Both the position numbers and the translations under genes were made by a program. A stretch of DNA of 64,000 bases from Thuidium tamariscinum. Its lineage: Eukaryota; Streptophyta; Bryopsida; Hypnales; Thuidiaceae. The stretch lies in NCBI GenBank assembly GCA_947034885.2, contig OX344755.2, positions 25,055,052 through 25,119,051 of the forward strand, read 5' to 3'. The notes beneath the pieces are model-generated. The model had not been told where the DNA came from and searched no databases. It saw only the letters and a list, made by a program, of their open reading frames with translations. Below are positions 355 to 64,000 of the stretch, one piece after another (position 1 is the first letter of the stretch; each line of letters begins with the position of its first letter).

Positions 355-2897
355 GATTTGGAATATTTGAATCTGATGAAGTTGAAGAAGGTTCCAAGCC
401 AAAACAAAGGCGCACAACCACAACCTTTCATATCTCGACGTTCTGCAGGGTTGTGTTTTGAGTTTTCAAAAAAAGATATTGGGTATGGAGGTTCACTACT
501 TCACTATCGGATGATTGCATGAACCACTTGTGCTATTTGTTGCATTTTGCAACAGTATTCTTGACTTTTTCTAGAATACTATGAAATTAGAAAACTAATT
601 TTTAAATTTTTAAAAAAATGCGACTTATGTATACACCTTTAAGACAAGGCAACCCCTGGAAGGATTCTATAGAAAAATTCTCTAAGTAGGAGAACTTGAA
701 AAGTGCCAAACCTTAAGAAAATACATACCTTCATGTTTTAATTAGGAAAAAATAGTAAAAATAAGTAAATACAAAAAATAAAAAGTGACCATTTGCAAAA
801 ACTTTATAGTGATGGTCATTCACCAAAAAGACCACCAAAATAATATTTTATATGTTTCAAAATTCAAGCAAAAAGAAGCTCACTTTGTAGACTTCCACAC
901 CACATAAAATTAATTACTTTCAAAAATCCTTCCTTGTAAAGGTAGAAGTCTACTATAATACCATATCATCTAAATTTCATCTTTAAATCATTAAAAAAAA
1001 AGGTACTCCTTAGAATTAAAAACCTCCAAATTGTCATTTGTGACATTCAATCACTAGTAGTATTTTAATATTAAACTATTTTTGAAAATTATGAAAAAAT
1101 TACATAAAGTGTATGATAGTCATGAGTACCTTCTTTAGAAATATTGAGTCATTTGGAGCAAAAATGAAAAAGTTATGGTCAAAAAATTGAACAACATGAG
1201 ACATGTGACGGAAAATAGTACAAGTGTTTTATGCAATCACCCTATCCTTCTTTTGCCTATGGAGAGATTTATTTGGAACTTGGAAAACAGTCTTTTATGA
1301 AGATGAGTGTGGAACTTGATTGTTACATTTCATATTAGGTTGTTGTATTCTAGTATGATGTGGAGTTGTTACTTGTCAATTGGGATAGGCAGGATTTACC
1401 TTGTAGGTTCAGAGGAAGGACCCATCTATAAGTGTGATCGCTCCTATAGTGAGCAATATGTAATGATCTACATAGGCCACAATGGCCCTGTATATGAGGT
1501 AAGGCACCTATTCTATATCTACAATCCTTGAAATATCTCTTTTGCTAAAAGGAATTATACAACTTTGTACTCTCTTTTAGATCACATTTTGGTACTACTT
1601 TACTCTTGGAATTGGTAGAACCAAGAATGAAGGTGTTTACTTTGAATTAAGGTAATTCTATGCATGGGGTGTAGGTTCGGTGGTCGCCGTACGTGCCATC
1701 CTTGTTTCTTAGTTGTAGCACTGATTGGACAGTACGACTTTGGAGTGAAGATCAAGTTAGTAGTTCTGCAGAATTTTTTTGCCTTCTCTATAGCACTCTC
1801 ATGGACAAGCACTCTCTCCCAAAGCTTGCATGAGATTCTCAAATAGACCATTAGTTTTTTATAAAACTCTTGCATACTACAATACAAATGTCACATTACC
1901 TAGGAGTTCTACTAAACCTTTTCTATATTGTAATAATGATTATACTCAAATGTTGATCTTATATTGCAACCCTTCATTGCTTTGTAACCTGATAAGGAAG
2001 ACCTGATAAAAAAAAGTGGTATGCATCTTAGGAAGGAGCTCTACTTGTGTTTCAGACAACAAACATGGCTATAGCTGATGTTCGATGGTCATTTGATTAT
2101 GCTTGTGTTTTTGCAGTGGCCTCTACTGATGGTCATATAGAAGTATTTTCTAAATTTTGCCTCTACCTTTGGATTTGAATAACTAATGTCTCTTAGTGCA
2201 ATTCATATGGGTATGCCTTTTAATATTCTCATACATGTATGTAGATTCCTTGAGGTGTACATATGTATCACTACTGTTGATGCTTCATACGTGAAGTAGA
2301 AGAAGGTTTATTTTACATAAGAATGAAAGCATTGTGTTTGTCGGGGGACCTTCACGTTCCATTACAATTCGTTACATGGCAGATGTGGGACTTGCACCTT
2401 TCAGTCATGAAACCAGTGATGGCTCATTTGATAGATGACGAGAGTATGTTGTCATGCATGATGTTCTCTGAAGAATCACCAGTGATTCTTGTAGGAGGCA
2501 ACAAAGGTGCCTTTTATATCCTAAGATTTGTAAGTACTCTCAACCACTTCCCTCCACTCCAATTCCTTACTTGATATTAGGTTGCCTTACTCATAGAAAT
2601 ATATACTCTTTAGGTGAGGTTTATCTTTGCTACCCAAAGGACAAAAGAGGTAGATTTCTTATGACACGTTATGTTTCCAAATACGTATGATTTGCACATC
2701 TCAAGATTCCTAACTCTCTCTCTAGCAACCAAGTACACATAGATTTGTTGGATCCAATAATGATGATACTAAATATTTCAATTGGAATTTCTTAAAATGT
2801 ATAGGATGGATTGTCAAGGGAACAAACAGACGAGGCAGAATCCCAAAAGCTTAAAGATACACTAGCAGCATCAGTCACCCGTCATGGTGCAGTGTAG
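355..2897 (+). CDS. Axonemal inner-arm dynein intermediate chain, DNAI4/WDR78/IC138-type, 3' part (5' end outside window)
   Basis: Six exons were traced: 355-482, 1393-1498, 1675-1755, 2032-2142, 2383-2529 and 2805-2897 (stop TAG). Together they give 666 nt with consistent phases, i.e. 221 residues plus stop. The product is the C-terminal WD-repeat propeller. Visible motifs are RRSAGLCFEFS, IYLVGSEEGPIYKC, GHNGPVYE, FLSCSTDWTVRLW, LLVFQTTNMAIADVRW, FAVASTDGHIE, MWDLHLSVMKPV and SPVILVGGNKGAFYIL, then a short charged tail. From family knowledge this arrangement fits the intermediate chain of inner dynein arm I1/f, which is built into sperm flagella and regulates motility; outer-arm DNAI1 is the nearest alternative. 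The reading frame is open through all six exons, so nothing here indicates a pseudogene, though upstream exons are not visible. Intron 355-482/1393 carries MITE A1. Expression in male gametes is inferred. Confidence 0.85.
509..1242. mobile_element. MITE A1 (family A) in a dynein-gene intron
   Basis: This is a 734-bp non-coding element with terminal inverted repeats related to GGGTGATTGCAAGAAACA. The left end reads GGATGATTGCATGAACCAC and the right end GTGTTTTATGCAATCACCC. It is flanked by a direct 4-bp duplication TATC (505-508 and 1243-1246). It is collinear over its whole length with A2 at 38319-39051. No transposase is encoded, so it is non-autonomous. It sits wholly inside an intron and does not break the reading frame. 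Confidence 0.85.
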
Positions 2898-5800
2898 CGT
2901 ATTATTAGATACATCCATTGAATGGCTTGCATGCTTTTCGCCAAACTCTTGTTTTAGGACAACATTGGATACGGACTTTATAGCAACTAGGAAACTAGTC
3001 ATCTCAAACCCACTTTTTAGTTATCATTGAAATAATTTCAAACTTTGCGTTTTGAATTACTTTAGTATTTTTTTTGATCATGTATAACATTTTCAATTAC
3101 TTTAGTTAGTTTTTTAATTTCAAATTCCATTGAATCCACATTTTTTTTCTATTTATTAATTTATAATCATTCTTCATATTGTAAATCCAAGTCTATAACA
3201 TTACTTTATATTTTCTTAGTTGATATTCAAACCATCAAAAACCTCAATTAGTTCAAAATGAATATTTCCAAAAGTTATATACAATGTTTTATTATTATAA
3301 TAACTACCAAAATTTCTAAGTATTATTTTATCTTCCATATCATAGACATTAATTTGTTTTCTTGAGTAACAAGATATCTACATAATTGTAGAAAATCACA
3401 CCACAATCCACCAACAATTGAGCTCTTTGATATTTTTCCTATGAACTAATCTAATTATTTGAAGATACATTTGATCTATATATTAGATATTTTCAACCTA
3501 TTCTATTACATAAATCATATAAAAAAAGATTCATTCAATTTTATGACAAAATCCTTCATTTTTTTTTTTTTTTTTTTTGGCACAAATGAAAGGGGAATTC
3601 ATTGCAAAGAAAGAGAATACAAACCACCCCACCACAAAAGGCCAGGGAGAGTCCTTCATACTTTTAGAATTCTTCTTACCAAACATTGCTTTAAATAATG
3701 TACTATGCTTATTCACAACTTTATTGATGGTTGAATATATCATGATATGTAACAAAATCAAATAAACAATATTTTACATTATATTGTACTTGTATTAGTG
3801 TTTAGGAGATTATTACATTCAATTTCTCATCTAATTTTTCCATAATATAAATATGAATTTTTCCAAAAATGGTACAACCTATACAAAATTACTAGAGGTA
3901 GAAATATACAAATGTACAAATTTCTTTGAAAATCAATATGAAAATTCTAGTTTGATAAAACAAACTAATGAATTGATATTCAAATATAAACCAAATACAA
4001 TCACATCTCTACATTTAATTTTGCTTGTGAACTGTATCATTGAACTTTTACTTCATACTTTGACAAAGATGCAATTTAGGTAGACTAGCAACTTCACTAG
4101 ATTTATAAAAAATAGAATGTAGAGACAAAATTTAATCTTAATCTTTAGAAAATGCTTAGATTGAAACAAATTTTTTGTCTACAACTCACTAAAATTACAT
4201 AATTAAAGAAAAATATGACAAAGTTGGAAAGAACAATGGATAAGATATACATGTCATGAAGTCAATACAACATAGGAGAAAATTGTGCACAATTGATACA
4301 AAATATATAAAAATAGGTTTCAAGAGATGTTGAATTTGCATCCAGGATGTCTTGTAAGGATAAGCTTCGAAGTCCTAACTTTTGAAATAACCACTAGATC
4401 TTTATAATAGATGAAGCAAACAAAAAAGTATTTTGAAAATGAATTTTTTTTCCTTAAATATTAAGCTTTAATGAAAAAACAAAATCTAAATAGGAGGTTC
4501 TATATGTCTATAATGATCAATTTCTTTTGATGGGTAGCCTTCATACTTCTTGAAATAGTTGCAAAAGAAATCAATACTTCAACTACTTCAAACAACTTAA
4601 TAGCTATAAATTTTTTAAAGACTTGTTTTTTCTTGGCCAGCAACTTGCAACCAAACAAAGTTGTGACACCACAATCCAAAAACAATTGTCGGAGTTGATA
4701 CAATCCAAACAATCTTGCCTCACCTACCATATTCAACAAACCAAGACCAATAAAGCTAAACATAGTTGGCATTGAAGACTATAGGTAGAAGGTTATAAAT
4801 TTTTTTTTTATTGAATGAACAAGTAAAATATCAACTTTTATTCTACAAAATTCATTCCCCTTCAAAACTCTACACTAAAATAATTGTAAAAAGAACTAGG
4901 TGATATGGCCAATTGTAATAATACACTAGAATGTAACGAATATCAAAATTTCCTTATAAGATAGTAAGAGATAAGACCAACTATTAGACTAACTATCTCC
5001 TAAGCAAATTTGCCTTAGTTAAACATTTAGATCTAAAATGATTAGAAAAGCCTAGTCACTAAAGTTTAAATATTATAAATCCAACTCCTTAGTCTTGTCT
5101 TGACTACCTCTGTGCAAACTCGTCATTCAATCAATGAGCACAACCACCATCAACTCTTTGATTGTATGGTGGTGGTGGTAGTGAATGGATTGCTTATAGA
5201 TGTTTAGAAAATGAGAAGAATGCTTATTGGCTTACACTTAATTTTAAAATGACATGAAGGAGGAAATGTACTAACCTTGATGTTAATCCCACTTTTGTAT
5301 TGGTCTTAATGATGAGCATACCTAATTTGTTTGTTTTTGTTTCTCTTTCTTTAGCTAAGACTTGCTTGTAGATTTTTCATCCTCACTCCATGTCAAAAAA
5401 GAGCAAATTTTAGATTTTGACCTTGAAATATTAGAGGGTGAAAAAATTAATGATGCAAACTAAAAAAAAGGAAGATGTTTGGGCACTAAATTTGCATGAT
5501 TTAAATTGTGATCTATTAGTTTATGAGGTCCATTTTGTTATAAACAAAAACTATAACATCTTTTCCTTGCTTAGAGTGCATCACATCTACTTGGCTAACA
5601 AGATCAAGAAAAGATGATTGTTTGCATGAAGAAAATGAAAAAAAACTAGTTTCAATATGTTGTTGATTTGCTACAGGCACCTATAAGGAGTATGGATTCA
5701 TTCTTGAGGTACTCCTCTCATCTAGGGCAAAAGTTGTAAGCAACTACATATACAAATAAAAATATTATAAACAAAGAATAAGTCTCTTCTTACACAATAC

Positions 5801-6968
5801 TTAAGATGGACAAAATCACTAGACACAACAATAAACAATAATATGATGACCTCAAACAAGACTTTTGGTAGAATTAGACTCTATCAAGAATTCTTAGCAT
5901 CAACAAAAAAAAACATGTAATGAATCATTAAAAGCAAGAAAAGTACACCCAGAGTAGTACGTGCATCTAAGTTGTTGCACACAAGCTACCACTTTTGTGA
6001 AGCCTATTACAGTGGAGTGAGATCCCAATTGACTGGCCATCATTGTTGAAAGACACCAATCCACAATGCCATCTCGAATTCCTCTTCGAAATCACCTTAA
6101 AAGATCCTCTTCGAAATCACTTTAAAAGATCCTCATCTCATCTACACCATTGTCACAATTATCTAAGGTCCTTCACAATGCTTCAACTCTCACCTTTTTC
6201 AATTACGAAAGGCACAACCACAACCTCAAAAACAATCTCTCAATTATACAAACCACCACGTTGTTGCTAGTTGAAAGGAAGTAGAAGTCAATAGTAGAAT
6301 GCAAAACCTAATCAACTACTGTTGAATTTTGCGTGAAGTGTATGCTTGTTGGTCCTTGTAATGTAAATGTGATATTATTTATTTAATTAATTAATTAATT
6401 AAAAAAACAAAGAGCCCAAGGTCCACCCAAGATAGCCTCCCCTAGCCAACCAAAAAACCACCTAAACAACCTCTCCTTAGTGACCTCCAAGTAAGCCCAA
6501 GTTCAAAAGAAAGGTCTATCCAAGCAATCTTCCCCCTTAACTAACCAAGGGTCTACCAAAGCCACCCCTTCCCCTAACCAAGCACATGTCAACCTATATT
6601 GTGTGGTGTGAATAGGGTTATAGATAAAATTTGGATACAAAGATCCCAAACCCATGATCGATGCCATGATCCGTTTGTCCAAAAGGATAGAGCCACTAAA
6701 AGTCCAGTGGTTTTTCCATTCCATTAATACGAATATTCAATAAACTTCAGCATAACTCTCCAAACCCACAAACGAAACTATTCAACTGGAACACCTGACC
6801 AGCTAAACGGTCTGTCATAGGAAATGGCTGAAAGCGCGTCCAAATGGATGTAAAAATTTCGAGTGGAACACCAATGATTGGCTGGTGTAGGTCAATTAAT
6901 AAAACATCACAAAACTCAAAAGGAGTTCTGCAAGGCACTTTACAAAAGAAGAATGCGCATAAGGAATG
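2898..6968. other. AT-rich region between two genes
   Basis: No convincing gene was found. It holds long A/T runs, a perfect-in-length 25-bp tandem duplication at 6081-6105 and 6106-6130, an AATT microsatellite around 6380-6402, and a C/A-rich stretch at 6410-6600 with repeated CCCAAG and CCACC motifs. The part next to 6969 probably includes the 3' untranslated region of the minus-strand fucosyltransferase gene, but I could not place a poly(A) signal. An open frame at 4500-4772 (minus) resembles nothing I recognise. Confidence 0.4.
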
Positions 6969-18260: not shown

Positions 18261-18796
18261 AACCATGATGCTAACACCATCAAGGACAACATAAGCTCCA
18301 CTAAAGATGAGTTTGAAATGGGCAAGTGATGAGTAAAACTATGGAGTCATTAGATTAAAACTTTTGTTCACAAATCATTCTCTATGCCTATTATTTACCT
18401 CCATAGCAAATGAACAGACATAGGAAAGATTTTGCATACTTGGTTGTAATTTTCTCCCTTAAAATGATTAAGTTTGAATTAATTTGATGTACTATACATA
18501 TGAGAAGGAGATTTTACGCTATGACTTGATCCAATATTTATGAAAATTTAAATAAATACTATACTTGGCATAGTTGTGTATGTTGCTTGATTAAATGTAG
18601 ATTCATTCAAGTTGAACCTTAAGAAATTTATATTTGTAGCCCTATTGTATTAAATAGTGGTACTTGAAAATTGATAATAATTGTGTAGATAGTATGTGGT
18701 TAAGTGCATCTACAATGCATCCTCAGCAAATAAGCCTTGTAACATCAAATGGAGGGCCATTCTACATGCCTCGTATAGTATTGGTATTTTCTTTGA

Positions 18797-19876
18797 GGGA
18801 CATTGCAAAAAACTTTGACTACTTTTGTAGCACTTTGCAAAATTTGTTCTTGTCCAATGCTATAACTTTTGATTGATGAATCCAATGCCCAAATCAAAAG
18901 ATTATTTTTAGAGTTTTTGATTGCAATCATATTCTATATTTTTCAAAAAAATTTAAAAATCATTTTACATTTAAAAGTTATTTTTGTTAATTTGTCACAC
19001 TTTCAAGATTTGAGGTCTTTAATACTATTGAGTAGTTTAAAGTAATGATTTTTAGTTGAAATTTTTTTGGTATGTTTTTATAGTAAGTAGAAATGTCCCT
19101 ACCAAAGGACATCTAAAAAAACATTATTCTATGACCTCTACATTAGTGCAAATAGGCCTCCCTTGTGCGCACACACTTCAAAACATTAGAAATGGTTTTG
19201 AGCTCATTTTTTTAGTCAAACCTCATCACCAAGAAGTCTTTTCAAATGACCAATTTTTAATTTTGTTCCAAAAAAAATTTCCTATTTTTTACAAATTAAA
19301 ATGTCCATGTATGTATTTTGTAGGACATGTTCTTAGACATTGCATTCTAGTAAAGAAAATACATACATGGACGTTTTAATTTGTAAAAAATAGTAAAAAC
19401 AATTTTGAACAAAAATAAACATTGTTCATTTGAAAAGACTTCTTGGTGATGAGGTTTGACTAAAAAAATGAGCTCAAATCCATTTCTAATGTTTTGAAGT
19501 GTGTGCGCACAAGGGAGGCCTATTTGCACTAATGTAGAGGTCATAGAATAATGTTTTTTAGATGCCCTTTGGAAGGGACATGTTTACCTACTATAAAAAA
19601 ATACCACAAAAATTTCAACTAAAAATCATTACTTTAAACTACTCAATAGTATTAAAAAATCCAAATCTTGAAAGTGTGACAAATTAACAAAATTAACTTT
19701 TAAATATAAAATGATTTTTAAAAATATTTAAAAATATAGAATATGATTGCAATCAGAAACTCTAAAAATATTTTTTGGGTTTGGGCATTGGATCCATCAA
19801 TCAAAAGTTATAGCACTGGACAAGAACAAATTTTGCAAAGTGCTACAAAAGTGATCATTGTTTCTTGCAATGACCC
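18797..19876. mobile_element. Fold-back MITE C1 (family C), near-complete palindrome
   Basis: The 1080-bp element is made of two inverted arms of about 520 bp around a short centre near 19.34 kb. It is flanked by a TTGA duplication (18793-18796 and 19877-19880). The ends follow the GGGTCATTGCAAGAAACA pattern. The same predicted peptide (starting MTSTLVQIGLPCAHTLQNI) appears on the plus strand in the left arm and on the minus strand in the right arm, which shows the inverted structure directly. It is non-coding as far as I can see. Confidence 0.85.
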
Positions 19877-19880
19877 TTGA

Positions 19881-21500
19881 ACAAAATGACCTAATGTAAA
19901 GTTAGCAATCCAAACATCAAATGAACATTTTTCTATTATAAACCCAAAAAAAAATCTTCATTATAAAAAGGCTTTTCATAGAAACAAGGAAAGGTTGCAT
20001 TGATTAGCACATATAGCAATGCTTGAAAAGCATTGACAATAATGATTATTTCCTAAAGGGCCAACTCATAGGCCCTTGATATTTTGCAAATCAACAGTCT
20101 TGAGTAGTCGGATATCAAAGCCGTGGAATTGGAGGCCCCAATGATGGTTGCATTGTAGCTCAAATTTAAATAAAAATTTGTCTACATCCAACACAATATT
20201 GATATTGTGTATGTTTCCAAAAGGATTGCAAATGCTTGAACAATTGTCAAATAATATAGAAATTGTAGATATGTTTGAGAAAGATTATGTGCAATCAGGT
20301 AGACAAAGCATATGAGAAATTTCCAACTATTTAAGGCTTGGGTTTGTATAAAATCTTATTCACTATTTTGTATTTTTTTCATGTATTAATAGAGGTCATC
20401 TACTTACCAATGAAATCTTGTACAATTGTAATAATTTGTTGTACAAGAGTGATGGAAAAACATGGTGTAAATCTATTTGATAAGCAGTGTCCATTTGAAC
20501 CCTCAAGAATTAAGAGAACATAATGTCTATTCTTCAATTTCAATGCCAAATTTTTGGCAGGGTGAAATAAATCTCATATTTTGGAACATGGGATCTTGTA
20601 ACATAACAAGTTGGCATGTTTATCTCATTTTCAAATATTCAGAATTTCAATGTGAAAATTATTTTAAATTTCATTTAAAAATATATAATATTATGCAAAA
20701 AAGTACCAAACATAATACTTTTACAATGAAAAGAATAGTAGAGATGGAAGAAAATATTCTCTTTAATATTTTTAGTTTTTGATCTACGCCAAGAAATTGG
20801 ATCTAGAGAATTTTTTTAAACTTTGTATTTTTAGCAATATCATAAACATACAAGGTTCAATATGGTGTGATTAAGAACTAAAATAATTAGAATGATTCCA
20901 AACTTTTGAAGATGTTACAAACAATATCTTAGGGAGGTCACTTTGTCTTATATTTTGTAACCACATGTGTTAACTACACATTTGATTGGGGTCTATTTAC
21001 CTAGTGATTATGATTTTAAGGGACCCTTTTAGTAGAAAAAGCTACATGATCTTAATTTGAAGCACCCAATAGGTAATTATAAATGAAAATCTAGCTTACT
21101 TTTTGGCATGCTATAGTATTTATAAAGTTTAGGAATTTAGTTTTGTTTGATGATGAAGGATTTCAAGATGAATGTTTGGCCTGAAAACATACAACATACA
21201 AAAAATTTGAATCAAATTCAAAAGCAACATGAAACAAACAACAATTAATTAACAATTTCACACTAAACTTCTTGAATAACTAGAGAGTAGTCACTTTGAT
21301 TTCTAAAGTGTTTTTTCTATCATTAAAATATTTAGATGAAGTTGCACTTGAAGTGATCTTTTGACAAGTTAAATTGGCCATCTTTGTGTGTAGCTAGATT
21401 TACATAACAAATTCTTTTGGTTTAAAGTCAAATGACTTTAATCCCTTAAGGACCAAGGTCTATATTTGCCAAAAGAACACCCAAAAATGTGATTGCTATT
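19881..21500. other. Intergenic, no gene seen
   Basis: AT-rich. Short open frames at 20338-20523 and 20477-20782 show no recognisable domains. Confidence 0.35.
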
Positions 21501-21504
21501 TTAA

Positions 21505-22448
21505 CCCCTAAATGTATTTGACTATGTTTTGCCAAAAACACTTCAAAACTGCCACTTCTAGTACAACAGCAAAATATATATTTTTTTTAATTTTAAAACA
21601 AATGTAACCGTAGGATCTTATATTAAACTAGTTTGAGAATATGTGGAAAAAATTTCAGAAATTTCCACCGTATAGATTGCAAGATAATAGTGTTTGAATT
21701 GTCAAAAATGCTTTTTTTGTCCCTGCGAAAATCCGGGCAGCTGCACTTCAGTAGTTCACTTTTGTATGAAAAAAAGTCCAAAATGGTTGTTACTCTTTCG
21801 ATTCATTCTTTTAGTCAAGTTAGCTACATGCCTAAAAAAATTCAAATCATTTGGAGTTCTACAACATGTAGAAAACAATTAGTAAGTAGAAAGAGGTAGA
21901 AAATGAATCAAAATATTAAAATAGTAATAATTAATTTTTGAAATTGAAAATTTCCAATCCCAATGGTTGTAATGTTGTAATAGACAATCTTCACCTAATG
22001 TGTTTATTTTTTTTCAAAAATATTAAAAATTGAGTAAAATAATGGACTTCAAAGTTTATTTTGGAGTAGAGATTCCATAACTTCCCACAAACTACCTTCA
22101 AACTAAAACTCCCATAACTTTCATTTCACAAATCAAAATGGAATAATTAAAAGCTTTCCAAGTAGATAAAAATCTAAAGAATGAATTTCAAATTTCAAAT
22201 TTTTAAAAAAGTGATTTTTGAAGAAGTTTTTTCAGCTGCCCGGGCTGCCCGCCGAGCAAAAGAAATCACATATCATGCAATAACTTTTTATTCATGTTGT
22301 CAAAAGTTATGAAAATTGTTGGGCCTTAAAGCTACTCCTCGGACACACTTTGTATGAGAATTTCAAAGAAAAAAAATAAAAACTCCATTCGTAGTGAGCT
22401 GCCCAAAATTGCTATGTTGCCAAAAAAAGCAGTTTGGGCATTTAGGGG
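21505..22448. mobile_element. TTAA-flanked MITE D1
   Basis: The 944-bp element lies between TTAA at 21501-21504 and TTAA at 22449-22452. Its ends are CCCCTAAATG and CATTTAGGGG. It contains GC-rich patches such as GGGCAGCTGC and GCCCGGGCTGCCCGCC. It is collinear with D2 and partly with D3. There is no transposase frame. TTAA targets together with CCC...GGG ends are the hallmark of piggyBac and are also seen in Sola3; assignment is inferred. Confidence 0.75.
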
Positions 22449-22452
22449 TTAA

Positions 22453-23141
22453 AGAATCAAAAAAAAATTTAAACTATCTTTTTGCACATCTAAACATAGG
22501 ATCTTATACTTTATTACTATGAGAGTGTATGAAAAGAACTTCAAAAGTTTTGACTGAACAAATTGCAAAATATCTTTGTTTAAAGTGGAAAAAAAAGTTT
22601 TTTGAGCACATTGCCGAGATGCCAGATTGGATTAATTGACTCTGGACCTTGTTTTTTGTATTATATAGTTTTGAGCTATAAATATTTTTGGTGGAAAATT
22701 CAATTGAGGGTCTAGGAAAAAGGAAAAAAAACTTTAAAGCTTAATTTATTTCCTTTAAAAAATTGTTGAGTAGAAGAAGGTATAAAATAGAAGGAAAATC
22801 AAAATTATGTATATCTTGAAGATAAAATTAAAATGCACTAATAACAATAGTGAGATTGTTCTAAACAACAAAATAAACTATGTAGAAATTTTTTTCTTGA
22901 AAATTTGTAAAAAATAAATTTCATAATAAAATCTACAAGTAATTTATTCAAGCAGACAATGAAATTGTTGAAATAACAAGATTGTTCATAACTTTTTCAT
23001 AACAAATCCAAATAAAATGAATCAAAACCTTCCATGTAGAAAAAATATAATCTATGAGAAGAAATCTTTCTTTTTTAGAACTCAAATTTTAAATTTTTTG
23101 GGGGTTTAGAGTTTAGGCAACTCCTCCTCACAACTAAACAT
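22453..23141. other. Intergenic, no gene seen
   Basis: AT-rich. The left part repeats phrases also found near family D elements (ACTTCAAAAGTT, GCCGAGATGCC), possibly older mobile-element debris. Confidence 0.3.
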
Positions 23142-24297: not shown

Positions 24298-25030
24298 TGG
24301 TGAATGCAAGAAACACTTGTACTTTTTATTGTGTTCTGTCACATCTTAGTTTCTAATTTGTTTTTTGGCCATAACTTTTTATTTTAGCTCCAAATGACTC
24401 AAAATTTATAGAAAATCTACTCATAACTATTATATACCTTACCTAATTTTTGATGATTTTTAAAAAATAATTTACTATTTTTAAACATCCCCAATAATTT
24501 CTCACAATGGATGAGATTTAGGGATTTTTTAGCACCTCATTTGTTATGCGAAAGAAAGCATCAAAAATTTTGCTCTCAAGATCTGAACTCCTTAAAAATT
24601 CTATTTGAACCCCCCAAAAAAAATTTGAGCTAGAATTTTGAAAGAATGGTCTCCTAATAGACTATTAGCTATTGTCTAAAGAAAATTTTAAAATACTTAT
24701 TTTTATGTGGTGTTAGTAGAAGTCCATGAAGAGAGCTTCTTTCTACATTTTTTTAAATCCTACAAAACATTATTTTGGTGAGTTTTTTGGTCAAAACTCA
24801 TCACCAAAAAGTCTTCTCAAATGCACACTATGTATGTATTTTTTTAAATCCTATTTTTTACAAATTAATATGTTAGAAGTTGTATTTTCTTCACTAGAAC
24901 TTTGGACATAGAATTCACATAGAATTCCAATGAAGAAAATACAACTTCTAACATTGTAATTTTTGCTAAATCCTTTTAGAAACATTGTAGTTCTACAATA
25001 GTGACTTGTCATGTCATGCAATGAAGAGGG
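24298..25030. mobile_element. Degenerate family A element (A3), reverse orientation
   Basis: It starts with GGTGAATGCAAGAAACACTT and then follows the reverse complement of the right half of A1/A2, including TTTTTGGCCATAACTTTTTA and GCTCCAAATGACTCAA. The far end is too diverged to place exactly, and no target duplication could be shown. Confidence 0.55.
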
Positions 25031-26328: not shown

Positions 26329-27058
26329 TAGATCATTGCAAGAAACACTTACCAGTTTTGTCTCAAAATGGCCTATTTCCATGAGTCCTGTGACTTTTGG
26401 AATAATTTTTCTTTAAATAAAATAAAATATGGATAATTTGAAGATCAATGAGAATATCATGTCTCTTAAAATTCAGACCTAAGAAAATTTACTTCTAAAA
26501 GTTATGCACAAAAAAAGGACAATGGAAAATACAATGAAAATAAACACTTTTTTCTTTTCTTTTTTAAAAATAGTAAAAAATTAAAATAAAATAAAATAAA
26601 ATAAAACATTTTTCCTAAGTTAAAAATTCTTCTTCTCCAATAAATTTCATCTTCAAAAAAAATATTTTGTGTTCTGTACAAGTGTACCTTGGTAGTGCAC
26701 TTTGAGCACATGTGGAAGTTGCACAGTATAATATTTTCAAAAAATATCTCTTGGACTTGTGTAACTACATTAGAGGACCATGCATGCCAATTTTTACCTC
26801 AAAATTTGATTTTTTGGGTCAAAAATAGGACTAAAAAACCCCAAAATGGCCTAAGTAGACACCCATTTGGGGGTAGTTTAAAAATAGTAAAATAATTTTT
26901 TAAGAACTGAAAAAATTACACAACATGTAAAACTTTTGTGTGCACCTTCAATCCAAATTTTAAGTCAAAAAAACAAAATTTAAAAAAGTTATAAGCAAAA
27001 AACTACCTAATTAAGGTCAAGGGGACAAAAAAAAGACAAGTGTTTCTTGCAATCACCC
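26329..27058. mobile_element. MITE B1 (family B)
   Basis: About 730 bp. The left end TAGATCATTGCAAGAAACAC and right end GTGTTTCTTGCAATCACCC match the shared A/B/C terminus. The flank is ATTT on both sides (26325-26328 and 27059-27062). The interior (GTTTTGTCTCAAAATGGC, TGGATAATTTGAAGA and others) is also found at the right edge of the window (B2). Confidence 0.75.
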
Positions 27059-27632
27059 ATTTGAAAATATTATTATTTTTAATTTCCTTCATTTCTTAGA
27101 GCTTCCTAACTAACTTTTAAATACAAAAGTTTCCACTTTCGACAATGTTGACACATCCATCCATCCATCATACCTTTAAGATAGGTTGTTTGTTTTGTTT
27201 TGTTGCATTAAGATCTCCCAAACTGTGCGTGCCTAGTTGCATTCTTGGTATTATCAGAAAGTCTTTGGTGAGGATGGGTATAAGGGAGAAACATTCATTT
27301 TCAAACAAGTCCCTTGCAATGGACTATAGACTCACCCAATTGCGTCAGTAGAGTTTCCTTAATGTGTTTGTTACATGCTTGATTCTAATTGGCTAACGCA
27401 TTTTAAGGACACATATAAATATTTGATTGGCTCATTATTGATTTTAGCAGGGTTTAGTTTTGGGTGCACCTATTGCACCAGTTTCACTAGTCTAGGGAGC
27501 CAAAACTTTGAAAAATTAGAGAAATTACATGCAACATCCAAAAACTCATTTTTTTTAATATTTATAATTTTCACTCACTAATACGAAAAAATATCATTTT
27601 TAGAAAAAATTTGCCTCCAACTATGCTGAATT

Positions 27633-28711
27633 GGGTCATTGCAAGAAACACCGACCACTTTTGTAGCACTTTGCAAAATTTGTTCTTGTCCAATGCTATA
27701 ACTTTTGATTGATGAATCCATTGCCCAAATCAAAAAAACTATTTCTAGAGTTTTTGATTGCAATCATATTTTATATTTTCTAGAATTTTAAAAAAATCAT
27801 TTTATATTTAAAAGTTATTTTTGTTAATTTGTCACACTTTCAAGATTAGGGGTTTTTTATACTATTGATTGGTTTAAATTAATGATTTTTGGTTGAAATT
27901 TCTGTGGTATGTTCTTATAGTAGGTAGACATTTCTCTACTAAAGGGAATCTTAAGAAACCTTATTTTACGACCTCTACATTAGTGCAAATAGACCTCCCT
28001 TGTGCGCACACTTCTAAACACTAGAAATGCTTTTGAACTCATTTTCTTAGTCAAACCTCATCACCAAAAAGTCTTCTCAAATGGACAATTTTTAGTTTTG
28101 TTCAAAATTGTTTTTCCTATTTTTTACAAATTAAAATGTCAATGTATGTATTTTCTAGGACATCATCTTAGACATTGAATTCTAGTAAAGAAAATACATA
28201 CATTGACATTTTAATTTGTAAAAAATAGGAAAAACAATTTTGAACAAAACTAAAAATTGTCCATTTGAGAAGACTTTTTGGTGATGAGGTTTGACTAAGA
28301 AAATGAGTTCAAAAGCATTTCTAGTGTTTGGAAGTGTGCGCGCAAGGGAGGTCTGTTTGCACTAATGTAGAGGTCATAAAATAAGGTTTTTTTAGATGCC
28401 CTTTAGTAGAAAGATGTCTACCTACTATAAGAACATACCACAGAAATTTCAACCAAAATCATTAATTTAAACTAATCAATAGTATAAAAAGCCCCTAATC
28501 TTGAAAGTGTGACAAATTAACAAAAATAACTTTTAAATATAAAATGATTTTTTTAAAATTCTAGAAAATATAAAATATGATTGCAATCAAAAACTCTAGA
28601 AATAGTTTTTTTGATTTGGGCAATGGATTCATCAATCAAAAGTTATAGCATTGGACAAGAACAAATTTTGCAAAGTGCTACAAAAGTGGTCAGTGTTTCT
28701 TGCAATGACCC
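27633..28711. mobile_element. Fold-back MITE C2 (family C)
   Basis: The 1079-bp near-palindrome has ends GGGTCATTGCAAGAAACAC and its complement, with an AATT duplication at 27629-27632 and 28712-28715. The same peptide frame (starting MQSKTLEIVFLIWAMDSSI) is read inward from both ends on opposite strands, showing that the arms are nearly identical. C2 is collinear with C1. Confidence 0.9.
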
Positions 28712-28859
28712 AATTCTTTATTTGAACGGTTTTGGGTGCTTCCATTGTAGGGACTTTGTTAGGGGGAATTTGAACCTACAATGTGAAAGTTATGGTTTTT
28801 TGAGTTATTTTTTATTTTATTAAATTAGAAAATTACTTTTTGCTTTCATTTTGGACATG

Positions 28860-29105
28860 GCAAAAGCATAGGGGCACACTATAGGAGAGGGTTCTAAAAC
28901 GGAGCAGGCTTTTGCAACCATCTTGTAGGGGCTCTTAAATGGACATGTGAACTTTGGAAAAATGAACTCTAGATTACAATGGAGCTTGATGAGGTTTGTT
29001 TTTACTTCTTCAATGGATGGTTTAAGAACTAGACTTGGTTCATTCCTAACTAAGTAGCTAGGTGCCTACTAATTTAATTCAAAATTAGAATTCGTTGTTC
29101 AACTA
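28860..29105 (+). repeat. Repeat J1, left part (interrupted by the mariner-like element)
   Basis: Matches, in reverse complement, 43.48-43.70 kb: for example GAGAGGGTTCTAAAACGG here and the complement of CTGTTTTAGAGCCCTCTC there, and AGAACTAGACTTGGTTCATTCC-like sequence. The repeat continues at 31602 after the inserted transposon. Confidence 0.7.
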
Positions 29106-29315
29106 CACTAAAGATGATATTTAGTGTTTAGTGACATTTAGTGTTTTTACCCCCCTACTAGTTACAACACTAAATCTAAACTTGTCCACAATTAGTGTTA
29201 GACTTGAATGCGCCACCTTCTCCTTCCTTGGAATTGCTTGGATTCTCAACTCCATTGCGCCGCCGCCTTCTTCCCTGGCTTTCCTTGCTTTCTCGCCGAG
29301 TTTTCAATTCAGTTC

Positions 29316-29500
29316 TCAGTTCAATTCAGTCAGCCCGAGTTTTCAGTTCGGTTCAGCCCGTGGTCTCCAGTTTAGTTCAGCCAGAGTTGCAGTTGGAGTT
29401 GAGTTCAGCTGGAGTTGCAGCCGGAGTTTGGTTCAGCCGGAGTTGCAGCTGAAGTTCAATTCAACTGGAGTTGGGAGGTTTCAACTCAGCCCGAGTTCCT
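29316..29500 (+). repeat. Imperfect short tandem repeats inside the mariner-like element
   Basis: Irregular copies of GTTCAGCCGGAGTTGCAG-like units, about 18 bp, occur upstream of the transposase frame. The block is GC-richer than its surroundings. Open frames across it give Ser/Phe/Val-rich low-complexity peptides and are unlikely to be real proteins. Confidence 0.55.
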
Positions 29501-29761
29501 TCCTGCCCCGACTATCGGGCTTTTTTCTGGGGGGGGTATAGTTCGCCGTTCCCGCCCATTGGCACATTTTGAATTTGCTGCCTCCACACATCTTCTCCTT
29601 CGCAGCTCCGTTTTCAGGCCCTCGCATCTTCTCACCAATAGGTCCATTTCAGGTATAGTAGCAACACCATTGCAATCGTCTTGTTGTCCTCTACATTATA
29701 TCAAAAATTGTTTTTTTTTTGTCAACATTTCTTGATTTTTTCCACGTTGTGGTTCAGGCTC

Positions 29762-31264: not shown

Positions 31265-31601
31265 AATTTGTACTTCCATGATTTTCAGAAATTACAATGT
31301 ACATTCCATCTTCATTATGTTATAAACCACTCTTTCATTGATAATGCTTGTTGTATACTTTTAATTAATCACTTCTAACTTCCTACGCTTTGAATGTCAT
31401 TGTTTTGCATGTATTTCCTGAATTTTCTAAATTCACAAACACTAAATTCAAACATGTCACTTTTTGGCAAGTCTCTCAAATCACCATAGTTCACATGTAG
31501 TGTTTGAATTGACATTTAGTGTTTTTACTTTCATAGGGTAATTGGCTTTTAGTGTATGCCTTTGTATTTAGTGTACAAGACACTAAATATCATCATTAGT
31601 G

Positions 31602-31975
31602 TACCTTCTTACAAGTATTGAAAAATCTGAAATAATGATTAAATCAAGCATTCGTTTCAGATTTTGAAAGGGACGCTTTTAGAAACCATTTCAATTACTT
31701 TACACATGTAGCAATACTAGTTTTTGAACAAACCCTGATTTTTTTTCAAAATATGCATGGATGGGTTTCCAAGGGCCTACGATCACAAATAGGGACCTCC
31801 ATCAGATTGTGTTTGAAATCTCATAACTAATTCAATAATGCTTCAAAAAATATGAAACGAGTTGTGTTAGATTCCTCATCTATTTCTCTTTGACTGAAAA
31901 AGAAGCTAAAAATATTTTCATCTCAGGAGATCCATGAAAAAGGTGGACCAGCCCTTAGATGAGCGGTTTCTGAGC
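31602..31975 (+). repeat. Repeat J1, right part
   Basis: Continues J1 after the transposon. It matches the reverse complement of about 43.09-43.47 kb, for example CCCTTAGATGAGCGGTTTCTGAGCCTC versus its counterpart near 43.11 kb and the phrase ATCACAAATAGGGACCT near 43.29 kb. No coding content seen. Confidence 0.7.
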
Positions 31976-33460: not shown

Positions 33461-33737
33461 TAAGGTGGGTACACTTAAAATTTCACCTCACCTAAAAGTG
33501 CCATCTATAGTAGTTGTACATTTCTGAATTCCATTATGTATCTATTTCGCTGGAGTGCTTTTAGAAACAGACTTTGAACCTTAATAACTTTTGCATATTG
33601 TATCCAAAATGCTGCGTTTTTTGGTGCATTGGAATGTGCTTTCACTTGCCAAGAAGACTATATGAAAATTTGATCAGACCAGTAATAGTTACTAGGCACA
33701 GTACCAAAAAGTGGCACTTTTAGGTATACCCACCTTA
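33461..33737. mobile_element. MITE E1 (family E), TA-flanked
   Basis: The 277 bp including TA on each side has ends AGGTGGGTACAC and GTATACCCACCT. The interior phrase AATAACTTTTGCATA and CTTTCACTTGCCAA are shared with E2 and E3. TA flanks suggest Tc1/mariner mobilisation. A partial second copy seems to follow at about 33742-33930. Confidence 0.75.
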
Positions 33738-38246: not shown

Positions 38247-39120
38247 CTTAGAGCAACCCCACAGCTACTTAGCAAAGCAACTTAGCAAATGAAATCAATG
38301 GACAATGTTCCTGCTGTAGGGTGAATGCAAGAAACACCTGTACTATTTGTTGCGTTTTACTACAGTACTCATGACTTTTTCTGGAGTACTTTAAAATTTG
38401 AAAATTAATTTGAAAAAAATTTGAAAAATATGAACAATGTATAGACCTCTAAGATGAAGGTTTTCATAGAAGGAAATTAATAGAAAAATTCTCTAAGTAG
38501 GAGAATTTGAAAAGCACCAAACCTCAAGAAAATACATACCTTCATGTTTTAATTTGGGAAAAATAGTAAAAATAAGTAAATACAAAAAATAAAAGGTGGC
38601 CATTTGCAACAACTTTATGGAGATGGTCATTCACCAAGAAAAACACCAAAATAATATTTCATATGTTTCAAAATTCAAGCAGAAAGAAGCTCACTTTGTA
38701 GACTTCCACACCACATAAAAATAAATTTTTTCAAAATCCCTCAGTTGGAGAGATGTAAATCTACTAGAAGACCATCTCATCCAAATTTCATCTCAAAATC
38801 ATTAAAAAAAGGTACTCCTTAGTACTAAAAACCTCCAAATTGTCATTTGTGACATTTAATCACTAGTACTATTTTAGTATTAAAATATTTTTGAAAATTA
38901 TGAAAAAATTATGTAAGGTCTATGATAGACATGAGTACCTTCTCCAGAAATCTTGAGTCATTTTGAGCAAAAATGCAAAAGTTATGGCCAAAAAACAGAT
39001 CAGCACTTAGATTGTGACGGAAAATAGTACAAGTGTTTCTTGCATTCACCCTGTAGAGAAAAACAATGGACCAGACCATCTACAGTGTTGCTTTGTTGAG
39101 TTGCTGTGGGCTGCTCTTAA
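38247..39120. mobile_element. Small MITE I (about 140 bp) interrupted by MITE A2
   Basis: The left end CTTAGAGCAACCCCACAGC and the right end complement TTAAGAGCAGCCCACAGCAA form inverted termini. The two halves lie at 38247-38318 and 39052-39120, separated by the complete element A2. This is a nested insertion, so A2 is younger than I. Confidence 0.65.
38319..39051. mobile_element. MITE A2 (family A)
   Basis: 733 bp, ends GGGTGAATGCAAGAAACACC and GTGTTTCTTGCATTCACCC, flanked by TGTA (38315-38318 and 39052-39055). It is collinear with A1 and retains better termini. Confidence 0.9.
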
Positions 39121-48767: not shown

Positions 48768-50384
48768 CCTGAACCCTCACCACCCTCGCATTCTCCGAAA
48801 ACGTGACAAATCTGGCTCCGTCACAAAAATTTCGCGCACAAAATTCAGAGCTCAGAAATTAGGGTTTAAAGAACAAACAATCGTAGGAATTGGTTGAGAC
48901 CACCGTGTGAAGTGTGAACGGGCCCCTCCTATCCCACAGGCAGCTGTTTTTTTGGTGCGAATCAATGAACGGGGAGTAAAGCATTTAACTTACCGCGTCT
49001 AGAATTTCCGAATTGAATTCAAAGTTTGAAGAAAAAAACGGAGCATTTTAGAGGAAAAGAAGAGAAATTTTTCATTTTTTTAGGGCCTAGAATTGGTTGG
49101 TCTAAGAAATTGTAGTATTTTAGGTGGTTAAGCTAAAATTCCTTCCTCAACTATGGAACAAATTCTTGTGAAAATGGCTAAAAGAGAATTTTTTTGGCTA
49201 ATTTCATCAATGGAGCATTTGGGTCGGGGTGAACTATCCCCCGCAAAGCAACCATTTAATCTTCGATTGCTGTGAGTGCTATTATGTGACATTTGGATGA
49301 TAATCTACAATCGTCAAAAGAAGAGCTTGTTAGAGGTTGTTTTTTCATCCATTCTTTTTAGTTGACCTTTCATGTTGAGTTACAAAGAATACTGATATCC
49401 AATTGAATTCTTAGTTTAACTAGTGTTTGTTTTCATGTGGTTGAGAAGTAAAATAAAAAACAAATGAAAAAATTTGTTATTTTAGTGTATTTCGAGGAGT
49501 TGTTGCTACTTGTTCTAAATATAAATTTTCTCCCCCCAAAAGATATTTTTTGAAGTTGAGCCCAACTAATGTAATGAAGGTCATCTACTCCAGTTTCATT
49601 ACCAATTGGAATTTTGGTAAAATTCATAATATTGAATATTGTATTGTAGTTTGAACTTAGGATGTGTTTCCAATGTCTATTGTATTCTAATTATAGAATG
49701 ATATGGAAATTGAGTTTATACCATAATGTTTGTCACTATAATATACACACATGATGAAATTTTTCAAATTTTTTCAAATAATTTTCTATTTAATGTGATT
49801 TGCACTTCACTTTTTCTTTAAATTTTTTTATGAAAATCAAATTTTTCTCAAATTTTATAGGTAGTAAAGTAGAATTGGCACCTAACCCATGTCATTTCAT
49901 ATTTTTTGGACCTTTGTGGAATTAGTTACAAATTTTTGAAGTTGAAATACAATAGTCATTAAAAGTGACCACCTCTTGAAGTGTATATTGTTGGTACATT
50001 GAAGAAAGAAAAATATACTTCTATCTCTTTATTGCTTTTATAGCAGCATACTATGGCTTATTGCAACTTGGGCCCTCTAAAAGAAATTCTCAAAGAAACA
50101 ATCTTTGTATGGTATAAATACTTTTAATTGAATTTTGAAATTTTCCATTCATAAGGAGATTTTTTCATAACCCCTAATTTGCAAGATGGATTTTTTCATA
50201 ATCTCTCTCAAGGAAGTTTCATGTTATTTTTCTACAATATCTATAGTAAATATGCAAGCATTAGACAAAATGTATCAAATATAGCAAGTTATTATAGTTT
50301 TATCAAAGAATGTAGAACATCTTCTTAGAATGGCTATCTAAACAAAAATATAGAGCAAGTTTTCTAATTTTGGAAAGAAAGCAC
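48768..50384. other. Promoter side of the PARN-type gene and AT-rich intergenic DNA
   Basis: 48.77-49.0 kb is GC-richer and presumably promoter and 5' UTR. Beyond this the sequence is AT-rich with no gene seen. Confidence 0.4.
48859..48867 (-). promoter_or_regulatory. Telo-box upstream of the PARN-type gene
   Basis: The minus strand reads AAACCCTAA, the plant telo-box, about 90 bp upstream of the start codon. Such boxes are common near transcription starts of plant genes for RNA and ribosome functions. Confidence 0.45.
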
Positions 50385-50661
50385 TAAGGTGGGTACACCC
50401 AAAAGCGCCATGTTCCTAAAAGTGCCATCTACAGTGCACATACATTTCCGAAATCAGTCATGTTCACAGACTGTAGATGGCGCTTTCAGAAACAAACTTT
50501 GACTGTTAATAACTTTTGCATACGGTATCCAAATCCTGCGTTCTTCGGTGCGTTGGAACATGCTTTCACTTGCCAACAAGACTACATCAAAATTTGAACT
50601 CATTAATAGCAGGAACTAGGCTCAGTATGAGAACGTGGCGCTTTTGGGTGTACCTATCTTA
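50385..50661. mobile_element. MITE E2 (family E), TA-flanked
   Basis: 277 bp including TA. The ends AGGTGGGTACACCCAAAAGC and GCGCTTTTGGGTGTACC are the best preserved in the window. Interior GTAGATGGCGCTTTCAGAAA is shared with E3. Confidence 0.85.
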
Positions 50662-51556: not shown

Positions 51557-51597
51557 CACTACTAGAAATTCAGTGACCGAAACAATAGAATTTCAAT

Positions 51598-54819: not shown

Positions 54820-55818
54820 CCCCTAGTTCTTTAACGATGTTTTCTTCCAAAGTGCTTCTAAACTGCAATTTCTAGTACAATTACCAAATTTTGGATAAAA
54901 ACATTTTTAGACATATATATAACTATAGGATAGACCTTCAAGTTTGTTTGTTTGAAAAGATGTGTAATTTTTTTTAGAAATTTTCATTGTCTAAATTGTA
55001 AGATATTATCATTTGAATTGACTAAAATATTTTTTTTGGCCATTTAAAAAATTAGAGTCATGCACTTCACAAACTCCCATTTGGATGGAAAAATGTTCAA
55101 AATGATAGTGCTTCTTTATATTCATTCTTCAAGGCAAGTTGGTTACATGGTTGGAATTTTTTAGATCAATTCAAATTGTACAACATGTAGGATAAACATT
55201 AGTGAGTAAAAACAAGTAGAGAATGATTTAAAATACTAAATTGTTAAGAATTTAATGATAGAATTACACATTTCAATCCTTTGCTTAAAAAAACAAACAA
55301 AAAAACAAAAACATTTGAAAACAAAAACAAAAAAACACATTTCAATCCCAATGGTTGTAATGATGTAAAAAACAATCCACATCCTATAACTTTATATTTT
55401 TCAAGAAAAATTGAAAATTGAGTACAATAAAGGACTTCAAAGTTTATATTTGAGTAGAAAATCCATAATAGCCAATGAAGAAAACTCCTTATAACTTTCA
55501 TCCCACTAAACAAAATAGAATGATTCAAAACTGCTTACCATGTATATTATAATTCTAGAAAAACAATTTCAAATTTTATTTATAAAAAAGAATTTTTTTT
55601 AATCTATCAAGATTGCTTAACCAAGAAAAGAAACTACATATTATATAATAACTTTTGATCTATATAGTCAAAAGTCATAAAAATTGTTGGGCCTCAAAGC
55701 TAATCCTCATACACAAGCTATGTGAAAACTTAAAAGAAAAAGATTAAAGCTCTATTTGTAGTGAGCTACTCAAAATTTCTATATTGTCAAAAAATGTAGC
55801 TTGATCCTTCAATAAGGT
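54820..55818. mobile_element. TTAA-flanked MITE D2
   Basis: About 999 bp between TTAA at 54816-54819 and 55819-55822. It is collinear with D1 (TTCTAGTACAA, CAATCCCAATGGTTGTAATG, AAAATTGTTGGGCCTCAAAG) but its right terminus is degenerate. It lies within the probable decayed family C copy. Confidence 0.65.
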
Positions 55819-55822
55819 TTAA

Positions 55823-56587
55823 TCATCACTTCCTTGATGCACTTCCTTAGGATGCATGAAGGAAAAGGTTTGTCCTACTCTATGAGCTATCTAGAAAATC
55901 ATTTCATTTTTTGTGAAATACTTGGATATAGTCTTTGATATAGTCTTGTAAGCACAACAAAGTACGCAGTGCTACTTAACATTAAAAAAAAGATACTTCT
56001 TGAAAGTGCAACAAATCTACAATATGTTTGAGAATCCAAGTATTTTGAACACAATTGAAAGCTTTTCCTTCTAATATAACAAAGTATTGAGCATTAGAAC
56101 CCTAGTTTTTGTCAAAGAGGAACAAAATTGACCACTCATTCTTACAATAAGTCCCTTATGGGTCTATAAATCTTATTATTTTTAGCAAAGTATCTTAGTG
56201 ATGTGTCTTTGATAGGTCTTGTATATTCAAGGTTAAGTGTCCTTTGGATGAGAGGAAAACCAATATACTAGATATATTAGAAGCCTTTTTCATCTATTTT
56301 CTTTCAGATTTGATGAAGAGTGTATGCACATTGAGAAGGAGCTTTCTAAATGTGTTTTTGTGGGGTTACATTTCAGTCAAAGTGCTCAAATTGTGAAAAA
56401 AATGGTGGCCACTATGAAAGAAGACCTTACTCATATAATTCTTTGATTGGGGCAACCTTTTCTTAATGTGAAAAATTATTTTTAAAGAGCTCCCGATGAA
56501 GTAAATAGTGCAATAATAATATCTAGGGTGTCCAATTAATTCCTAAATGCTTAAGGCTTTTTTTGAGTTTCTAAGAATTTGCTTTAA
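55823..56587. other. Intergenic, no gene seen
   Basis: AT-rich sequence without recognisable coding content. Confidence 0.3.
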
Positions 56588-56900
56588 CCCCTAAAGGACC
56601 AAACTGCATTTTTTGGCAACATAGTGCTTTCAGGCAGCTCATTACAGATGGAGTTTTGTTTGTTTTAAAAAAAAATTAATACAATATGTGCCCAAGGAGC
56701 AGCTTTAAGGCCCAACAATTTTCATAACTTTTGACTACATAGTGAAAAAGTTATTGTATGATATGTAGTTTTCTCTACTTGGTGGGTAGACTAGGTAGCA
56801 AAAAAAGATTCTTCAAAAATTACTTTTAAAAAAAATTAAAATTTGAAATTGGTTTCTTTGAAGTGGTTTTGGTGAAAACATAGTCAAAAACCTTTAGGGG
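56588..56900. mobile_element. TTAA-flanked MITE D3, internally deleted
   Basis: 313 bp between TTAA at 56584-56587 and 56901-56904. The ends CCCCTAAAGG and CCTTTAGGGG are perfect inverted repeats. It keeps one end region of D1 in reverse orientation (GGCCCAACAATTTTCATAAC) and lacks the middle. Confidence 0.8.
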
Positions 56901-57239: not shown

Positions 57240-57802
57240 TATTGAAGCATGTATTTTCTAGGACATTTTTTGGACATAGAGTTTTGTTCTAGAAAACACA
57301 TGCTTTAATGTTTTAATTTGTAGAAAATAGGAAAAATAATTTTCAACAAATGTAAAAATTGGCCATTTGGGAAGACTTTTTGGTGATGCTATTTGACTAA
57401 AAAAATGAGGTGAAAACCATTTCTAATGTTTGGAATTGCACACGCAAATAAGGCCTGTTTGCATGAATGTGGAGGATACAAAATAATGTATTTTTAGATT
57501 TCCTTTGGTAGGAACATGTCTACCTACTAAGAAAATATACCATAGAAATTTCAGCTAAAAGAAATTAATTTTAACCGCTCAATAGTACTAAAAACCTCAC
57601 TATGTCAAAGTGTGACAAATTAACAAAATCAAATTTTAAATATAAAATGATTTTTAAAAATTTCTGAAAAATAAGGAATACAATTTTTGTCAAGATCTTT
57701 AGAAATACATTTTTTGTTTTTGGCATTGGATTCATACATCAAAAGTTATAGCGCTCCAAAATTAGAACACAACCAAATTGCTAGGTGTTTCGTGCAATCA
57801 CC
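57240..57802. mobile_element. Decayed right half of a family C element
   Basis: It begins at the family C centre (CATGTATTTTCTAGGACATT) and continues collinearly with the right arms of C1 and C2 to GTGTTTCGTGCAATCACCC. The left half is separated or lost. Confidence 0.65.
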
Positions 57803-57865
57803 CTATAATCTATGAAAAAAAACTTTTTAAAATTTTAATTTTAATTTTTTGTAAATGTTTTTTTC

Positions 57866-58050: not shown

Positions 58051-58170
58051 CACTATATTCTTGGTAGACTGCAGGAACTTGCAATTTCTTACACCCCTCA
58101 AATTACAATCTTTTTTCAATAAAAGAAATTTTTTCAATAAAAGAGATTTGGACTACATTGCATATTGAAC

Positions 58171-58438
58171 TAAGGTAGGTACACCCAAAATGGCACCTGA
58201 CCTTAAAGCGCCCTGTACAACGTGCATACATTTTCAAAATTAGTCATGTACCCAGACTGTAGATGGCGCTTTCAGAAACATACTTTGACTTTTAATAACT
58301 TTTGCATATGGTATCCAAATCCAATGTTCTTTGGTGTGTTGGAACGTGCTTTCACTCACCAACAAAACTGTAAAAAAATTTGAACAACATAATAACATGA
58401 ACTAGGCACAGTATGAAAAACTGGCGCTTTTGGGTGAA
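58171..58438. mobile_element. MITE E3 (family E), right end lost
   Basis: Starts TAAGGTAGGTACACCCAAAA and is collinear with E2 up to TGGCGCTTTTGGGTG, after which the terminal TA side is missing. Confidence 0.7.
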
Positions 58439-63415: not shown

Positions 63416-64000
63416 TGGTCGTTGCAAGAAACACTTACGGGTTTTGTCTCAAAATGGCTCAAAATCAATGAACCCTGTGAGTCTTGTGACCCTTTGAAAT
63501 AAAAAATTTTTAAATTGAAAAAAATATGGATAATTTGAAGAGCAATGAGAATATCATGTCTCTTTAAATTCAGACCTAAGAAATTTTTTCTCTAAATGTT
63601 ATAGACAATGGAAAATACAATGAAAATAGCTCTTTTTCACTAATTTGGTAAAAATAGTAAAAAAATTCAAAAAATGAAATTGAAAAATCCATTTTTTTTT
63701 CAAGTAAAGGTCTTTCTTTTCCAACAAATTTCATCTTTGGAAAAAATAAATTCTATTCTCTACACTTGCGCAAAGTCAGCCACTTTGACGACATATGGAG
63801 GTTGAATAGTATAGTATTTTCAAAAAATCTCTTTGCGGTCTTATGTAACTTTAGGTGAGGTCCTTGCATGCCAATTTTCATCTCAAAATTTGCATTTTTG
63901 GGTCAAAAATAGGACTAAAACCCCCCAAAATGGCCAAAGTAGACACCCAATTGGGGGTAGTTTAAAAATAGTAAAATAATTTTGAAAAAATTGAAAAAAT
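63416..64000. mobile_element. MITE B2 (family B), truncated by the window end
   Basis: Starts TGGTCGTTGCAAGAAACACT and is collinear with B1 (CAAAATGGC, TGGATAATTTGAAGA, GACACCCAATTGGGGGTAGT) until the window ends. Confidence 0.75.

Follow-up and report, generated by a model that had tools for sequence, protein, structure and literature searches.

Among DNA transposons with terminal inverted repeats (TIRs), hAT elements have a target site duplication (TSD) of 8 bp, Mutator elements have one of 9 bp (range 8-11), and CACTA elements carry CACTA ends and a 3-bp TSD. Tourist-type MITEs of PIF/Harbinger begin with a G-rich TIR, as do the elements described below. Sola3 targets TTAA, and Chapaev, known from animals, has a 4-bp TSD and ends of its own. 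Seven TIR superfamilies are listed for plants in the relevant passages of PMC10741241, namely Mutator, CACTA, hAT, PIF, Tc1, Sola and Ginger; the same passages give Tc1/mariner a 2-bp TSD, TA, and Ginger a TSD of 4-6 bp and 5'-TG...CA-3' ends. Sola is described with a 4-bp TSD and TIRs of 11-1124 bp, and as present in the moss Physcomitrella, in statements from PMC10741241 and PMC9033089, and the target of Sola2 is given as AT-rich AWWT in an extract of PMC3627910.

The window analysed here is a 64,000 bp stretch of DNA (C7:25055052-25119051) in a genome of 363,211,507 bases on 19 contigs. The host is a photosynthetic eukaryote, since the genome contains 49 matches to PF00504 (chlorophyll a/b-binding family). 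The elements of the window, which fall into groups A, B and C, are listed in Table 1; matches to the element library span 6190 of the 64,000 bases. The TSDs TATC, TGTA, TTGA and AATT reported in the first-pass annotation were all recovered, TTGA being read by eye, and a fifth, ATTT, is only probable because the flanks of 26330-27058 are TTTT/ATTT as called and its left end needs a one-base shift. No second end was found for the A-like stretch 24298-24962, which is probably truncated or decayed, and no left end for the C-like fragment, 57803 being a single end.

Table 1. Elements with the common terminal motif in the window
Feature	Position	Strand	Ends and TSD
A-family MITE, 734 bp	509..1242	+	TSD TATC at 505-508 and 1243-1246
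C-family palindromic MITE, 1080 bp	18797..19876	.	TSD TTGA at 18793-18796 and 19877-19880
A-like stretch, one R end (TGGTGAATGCAAGAAACA)	24298..24962	+	library matches 24299-24535 and 24616-24962
B-family MITE, 729 bp	26330..27058	.	R end at 27058
C-family palindromic MITE, 1079 bp	27633..28711	.	TSD AATT at 27629-27632 and 28712-28715
A-family MITE, 733 bp	38319..39051	+	TSD TGTA at 38315-38318 and 39052-39055
C-like R-end fragment	57249..57803	-	GGGTGATTGCACGAAACA end at 57803
B-family L end	63416..64000	+	element continues past window end

With 3 mismatches or fewer allowed, the 18-base end GGGTGATTGCAAGAAACA matches the window 12 times, against 0.12 expected; none of 100 shuffles reached 12. 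The common terminal motif seen in the first-pass annotation therefore holds, and the genome-wide search that it had proposed for the 18-bp terminus returned 4,541 exact copies (2240 + 2301) and none of the reversed control pattern. A looser pattern, with S allowed at position 5 and 2 mismatches, occurs 23,142 times (11555 + 11587) versus 13 times for controls. The window is richer in these termini than the genome average, with 11 where simple division gives about 4 per 64 kb. If each element has two ends and about 0.73 kb, the terminus count corresponds arithmetically to some 11,500 elements, which would make up roughly 2-3% of the genome. The 57-base end of one subfamily is present in 223 exact copies, and the exact 18-base end is absent from viral contigs. 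At 67 termini, G occupies positions 1, 2 and 3 in 60, 65 and 62 cases and T occupies position 4 in all 67. Identity over the first and last 18 columns of the element alignment is 92-99%, compared with 83-88% overall, a difference that is partly circular because the copies were retrieved by their ends; the alignment, used for end conservation and for grouping, leaves out three elements with nested inserts (L015_4545, L014_5671 and L055) and window_18797.

Duplication of the target was studied in the window on C7 and over the initial 4.7 Mb of C1, where copies were picked by exact ends and are therefore not a random sample. The window together with twenty C1 stretches of 10 kb each (264 kb in total) contained 72 termini, which were paired automatically into 27 facing pairs with 18 single ends left over. 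Exact 4-bp repeats flank 21 of these 27 pairs, whereas 2000 shuffled pairings gave 1.08 on average and never more than 6. No pair has an exact flank repeat at k = 3 or at any length from 5 to 11, and at k = 2 there are 4 matches in 27 versus a shuffled mean of 3.01. In twenty further stretches of 2 kb, extending inward from exact ends, a partner was located 17 times, and the 4-bp TSD is exact in 15 of these pairs. Pooled, 36 of 44 pairs carry an exact TSD drawn from 29 different words; of the remaining eight, five are off by one base, two by two (L022_4749 and L053) and one by three (L026_4700). A C2 copy with TGAA/TGAA and the window element 18797-19876 with TTGA/TTGA are additional to the 44. 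AT content is 78% in the 36 TSDs and 68% in the sequence flanking the 27 pairs; none of the TSDs is TTAA and four match AWWT. On C1, two pairs of ends separated by about 10 kb (4864936/4875171 and 37369182/37378942) lack a matching TSD. The 4-bp duplication of varied sequence put forward in the first-pass annotation is thus confirmed, with flank duplications not absent from the 44 pairs sampled and not of another length in the 27 compared at other lengths.

Empty target sites were sought by comparing the joined flanks of 36 elements, one TSD copy each, with the sampled DNA. Among the matches listed, at least four insertions have an empty homologous site. For the palindrome at window 27633-28711, the stretch L017 8219-8327 is an empty homologue, 88% identical and with a single AATT. 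Element L015_4781 lies within a B element, and many B elements without the insertion run continuously across its TATT site, the empty site holding exactly one TSD copy; this nested arrangement reads TATT/TATT inside CCAT/CCAT. For L010_4919 a 95% ungapped empty homologue is found in the same stretch, with ACTC for ACTT, and L013_3613 is inserted in another repeat of which other copies are empty, the best one with ACAA for ATAA. L015_4545, whose match was to its own right flank, was left out of the count. These empty homologous sites reject a recombination artefact.

The elements are short and non-coding, with TIRs, a TSD and a high copy number, as is usual for MITEs. Thirty-six of the 44 are 711-756 bp long, and the longest stop-to-stop frame is 107 aa in the 45 paired elements (the 27 and 17 pairs and window element 18797-19876). 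Of 25 non-palindromic elements, 21 have their best match between arms at the ends; it spans 14-36 bp in 20 of these and 90 bp in the remaining one. The other four have it away from the ends. Inward of the termini the two ends are typically unlike: CATAACTTTTG, or a variant of it, lies about 70 bp inside the R end and is missing from the L end.

The first-pass annotation took the interiors of A, B and C to be unrelated, which applies only to the direct comparison of B with C. Matches of at least 60 bits connect all 28 elements into a single component, which rejects three unrelated families. A and B align over 94-302 bp at 67-73% on the R end bearing ATAACTTTTG, although for four A copies the match to the B element of the window is limited to 30-36 bp. 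Between the C copies of the window and A copies, alignments extend for 79-396 bp at 65-78%, except for a single 42-bp match. The B-C link runs via A, since the direct match of B with C is confined to about 30 bp of the end. In a set of 41 elements there are groups of 22, 14 and 5 at 200 bits, and all 41 unite at 60 bits. We read A, B and C as branches of one lineage. The three groups also make one superfamily by the Repbase rule, quoted from a section of PMC4455052 as equal TSD length and alignment of terminal positions 1-11 with at most 1 mismatch: the TSD is 4 bp in all three groups, the consensus R end is GGGTGATTGCA in both A and B, and the window C ends are GGGTCATTGCA; the left end of B, GGGTCGTTGCA, has 2 mismatches where the rule allows at most 1. 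Thirty-eight elements have a neighbour that aligns over at least 600 bp, and identity to the nearest one lies between 71% and 95%. Single insertions look younger than this divergence between copies because mismatches within TSDs amount to 4 in 100 positions (27-pair set, two odd pairs set aside), and several source lineages appear to have been active side by side.

Three elements of 1079-1080 bp are palindromes with the R-type end at both sides: window 27633, window 18797 and L025_3198, with arms 98, 92 and 87% identical. The left end of window 18797 has diverged (GGGACATTGC). All three did insert, since they are flanked by TSDs (AATT, TTGA and ATCT, respectively). As elements bearing the R end twice are flanked in this way, two R ends would seem to suffice for transposition. 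One palindrome is predicted to fold into a single 1079-nt hairpin of -831.5 kcal/mol. A full-length inverted repeat and a strong hairpin are also features of palindromic (foldback) MITEs; the palindromes reported here differ in branching among asymmetric 730-bp MITEs, with at least two origins on the tree. That tree omits L023_4746, L014_7024 and L017_3961, in which the R motif was not recognised, and includes L024_4059 as a branch 1.21 long that is probably wrongly oriented. The arms within each window palindrome (18797-19876 and 27633-28711) are closer to one another than to those of the other copy, which suggests arm-to-arm copying within an element. The palindromes themselves probably arose by doubling of the R end.

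An abundant MITE supergroup with a 4-bp TSD is therefore real. With a probability of about 0.88, its members are non-autonomous DNA transposons of one diversified lineage with short TIRs, moved in trans by a transposase. Bounded by short inverted termini (GGGTSATTGCAAGAAACACTT...), the elements would be moved as DNA by this enzyme, which would make a 4-base staggered cut in a nearly random, mildly AT-rich target; fill-in on both sides would leave the 4-bp duplication. The route would be cut and paste, and one enzyme family, presumably a DDE-type transposase of Sola1 or of an unassigned superfamily, may serve all lineages. Movement by a single transposase in trans, put forward in the first-pass annotation, is what we infer.

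An autonomous element with the same ends, proposed as a check in the first-pass annotation, did not emerge: neither a transposase nor a coding element with these ends was found in the 45 paired elements, where no frame exceeds 107 aa, or in searches with five Pfam families. The near-duplicate loci L040/L041 and locus L044, the latter with a 155-aa frame beyond the MITE part, have no partner end within 2 kb. This bears on the view that a common plant superfamily (PIF/Harbinger, hAT or Mutator) includes the elements as odd members and that its enzyme cuts with a 4-bp stagger in this genome, a view that we regard as unlikely. The genome is indeed rich in PF13359 matches (best 150 of 331 candidates scored) and in long-frame matches to the hAT dimer domain PF05699 (best 150 of 714), and AAAAGTTATG is common to the R ends and the hAT 3' region. 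However, the six top PF13359 loci have neither a MITE terminus nor a TIR pair within 1.5 kb flanks, and the only PF13359 match less than 5 kb from the R ends listed (100 of 223) adjoins an ordinary MITE. No MITE terminus lies in the roughly 620 bp 3' of the stop of two 1061-aa hAT ORFs, the hAT ends lying farther out; in the 1118-aa copies about 30 bp past the stop were read, and hAT flanks were covered in four copies in total. None of the 33 matches to PF10551 (MULE) is within 10 kb of the same 100 R ends, the nearest being at about 18 kb by eye. PF12762 has two matches in the genome, with a MITE terminus at neither, and PF13546 has none. The TSD points the same way. Exact repeats of 3 bp (PIF/Harbinger), 8 bp (hAT) and 8 to 11 bp (Mutator) flank none of the 27 pairs, the ends are GGGT in place of CACTA, whose 3-bp TSD is likewise not seen, and the 2-bp matches stay near the shuffled mean, which removes Tc1/mariner. 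Tourist-type MITEs are equally short, non-coding and high in copy number; these elements differ from them in a TSD that is 4 bp and varied rather than 3 bp, and in the six PF13359 loci lacking these ends. The misfit with the usual plant superfamilies noted in the first-pass annotation stands, given a genome-wide motif and a varied 4-bp duplication in the sampled copies. Its suggestion of Ginger fares less well. Elements moved by a Ginger-type, integrase-like enzyme would share with Ginger and GingerRoot a TSD in the range of 4-6 bp, but the ends here are GGGT...ACCC with the TSD directly outside, not TG...CA, and 5- or 6-bp TSDs are absent from the 27 pairs; this origin is highly improbable.

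Non-autonomous members of Sola, most likely Sola1, which has been reported from Physcomitrella, are a tentative identification, less likely than not. The 4-bp TSD found here is that of Sola, short TIRs fall within its variable range, and Sola1 is the best-known candidate because Sola is listed for plants with a 4-bp TSD and a moss host. Against this, only 4 of 36 TSDs fit the AWWT of Sola2 and none the TTAA of Sola3 or of other TTAA users, which rejects those two; Sola1 was compared by description rather than by terminal sequences, and the PF00504 matches identify the host as green without proving it a moss. The alternative, a superfamily absent from the present classification for plants and without kinship to any of the seven listed, is slightly less likely still. 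It would be a plant superfamily with GGGT...ACCC ends (GGGTGATTGC being the end sequence of these elements), a random 4-bp TSD, many diverged lineages alive and repeated R-R palindromes with homogenised arms, a description that we offer with equal reserve. It is reached by elimination, and Sola1 and animal superfamilies with 4-bp TSDs, e.g. Chapaev, lie outside that elimination. In its favor, no superfamily whose diagnostic marks were compared agrees with both the ends and the TSD, and a survey of 207 plant genomes sorts its MITEs by end and TSD into five superfamilies and Micron, as stated in the sections consulted of PMC12550479.

That classification makes mislabelling possible: a lineage of about 11,500 copies with a 4-bp TSD could have been assigned wrongly or dropped in plant MITE surveys, and '4 bp' does not occur in the main text of PMC12550479 as available. 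A moss genome annotated with 29.13% TIR elements, CACTA having the largest share (portions of PMC11704416), is one place where this could be checked. Among the literature matches listed, which do not cover Repbase, no paper on these elements was found. The palindromes offer a natural test of the end sequences that a transposase requires, and their 1.1-kb hairpins, as modelled, might be sources of small RNAs.

Other mobile elements and repeats were observed in the same DNA. Seven PF13359 matches of identical score, in 458-aa frames, are a recently amplified Harbinger family. The matched region is free of stops in nearly all of the 150 hAT matches listed out of 714, and dozens of these matches belong to frames with a length of 1061 or 1118 aa. 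Identity between two of the 1061-aa copies is 99.6-99.8% across 1.9 kb, and the hAT copies are a very recent burst. A Merlin-like PF12762 match at C4:25125772-25126173 lies in a 333-aa frame with two internal stops, the other match to this family being a weak fragment on C6. The window contains a pogo-like DDE_1 (PF03184) transposon at 29104-31603, with an ORF at 29993-30892 and 24-bp inverted ends of its own (TACACTAAAGATGATATTTAGTGT), which rule it out as the source of the MITEs. A separate high-copy repeat of 348 bp is nested in a MITE at L014 6095-6442 (within 5671-6707; probe positions 425-772), its other 39 scored matches being 92-97% identical. A short repeat family occupies window positions 33459-33726, 50383-50650 and 58169-58436; copy 50383-50650 ends in GGTGGGTACACCCAAAAGCGCC...GGCGCTTTTGGGTGTACC and also bears ATAACTTTTGCAT internally. 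Another repeat family is located at 21500-22453, 55340-55803 and 56582-56850, copy 21500-22453 having the ends TTTAACCCCTAAATG...CATTTAGGGGTTAAA, and its members at other loci have sequence in common with the 3' region of the abundant hAT.
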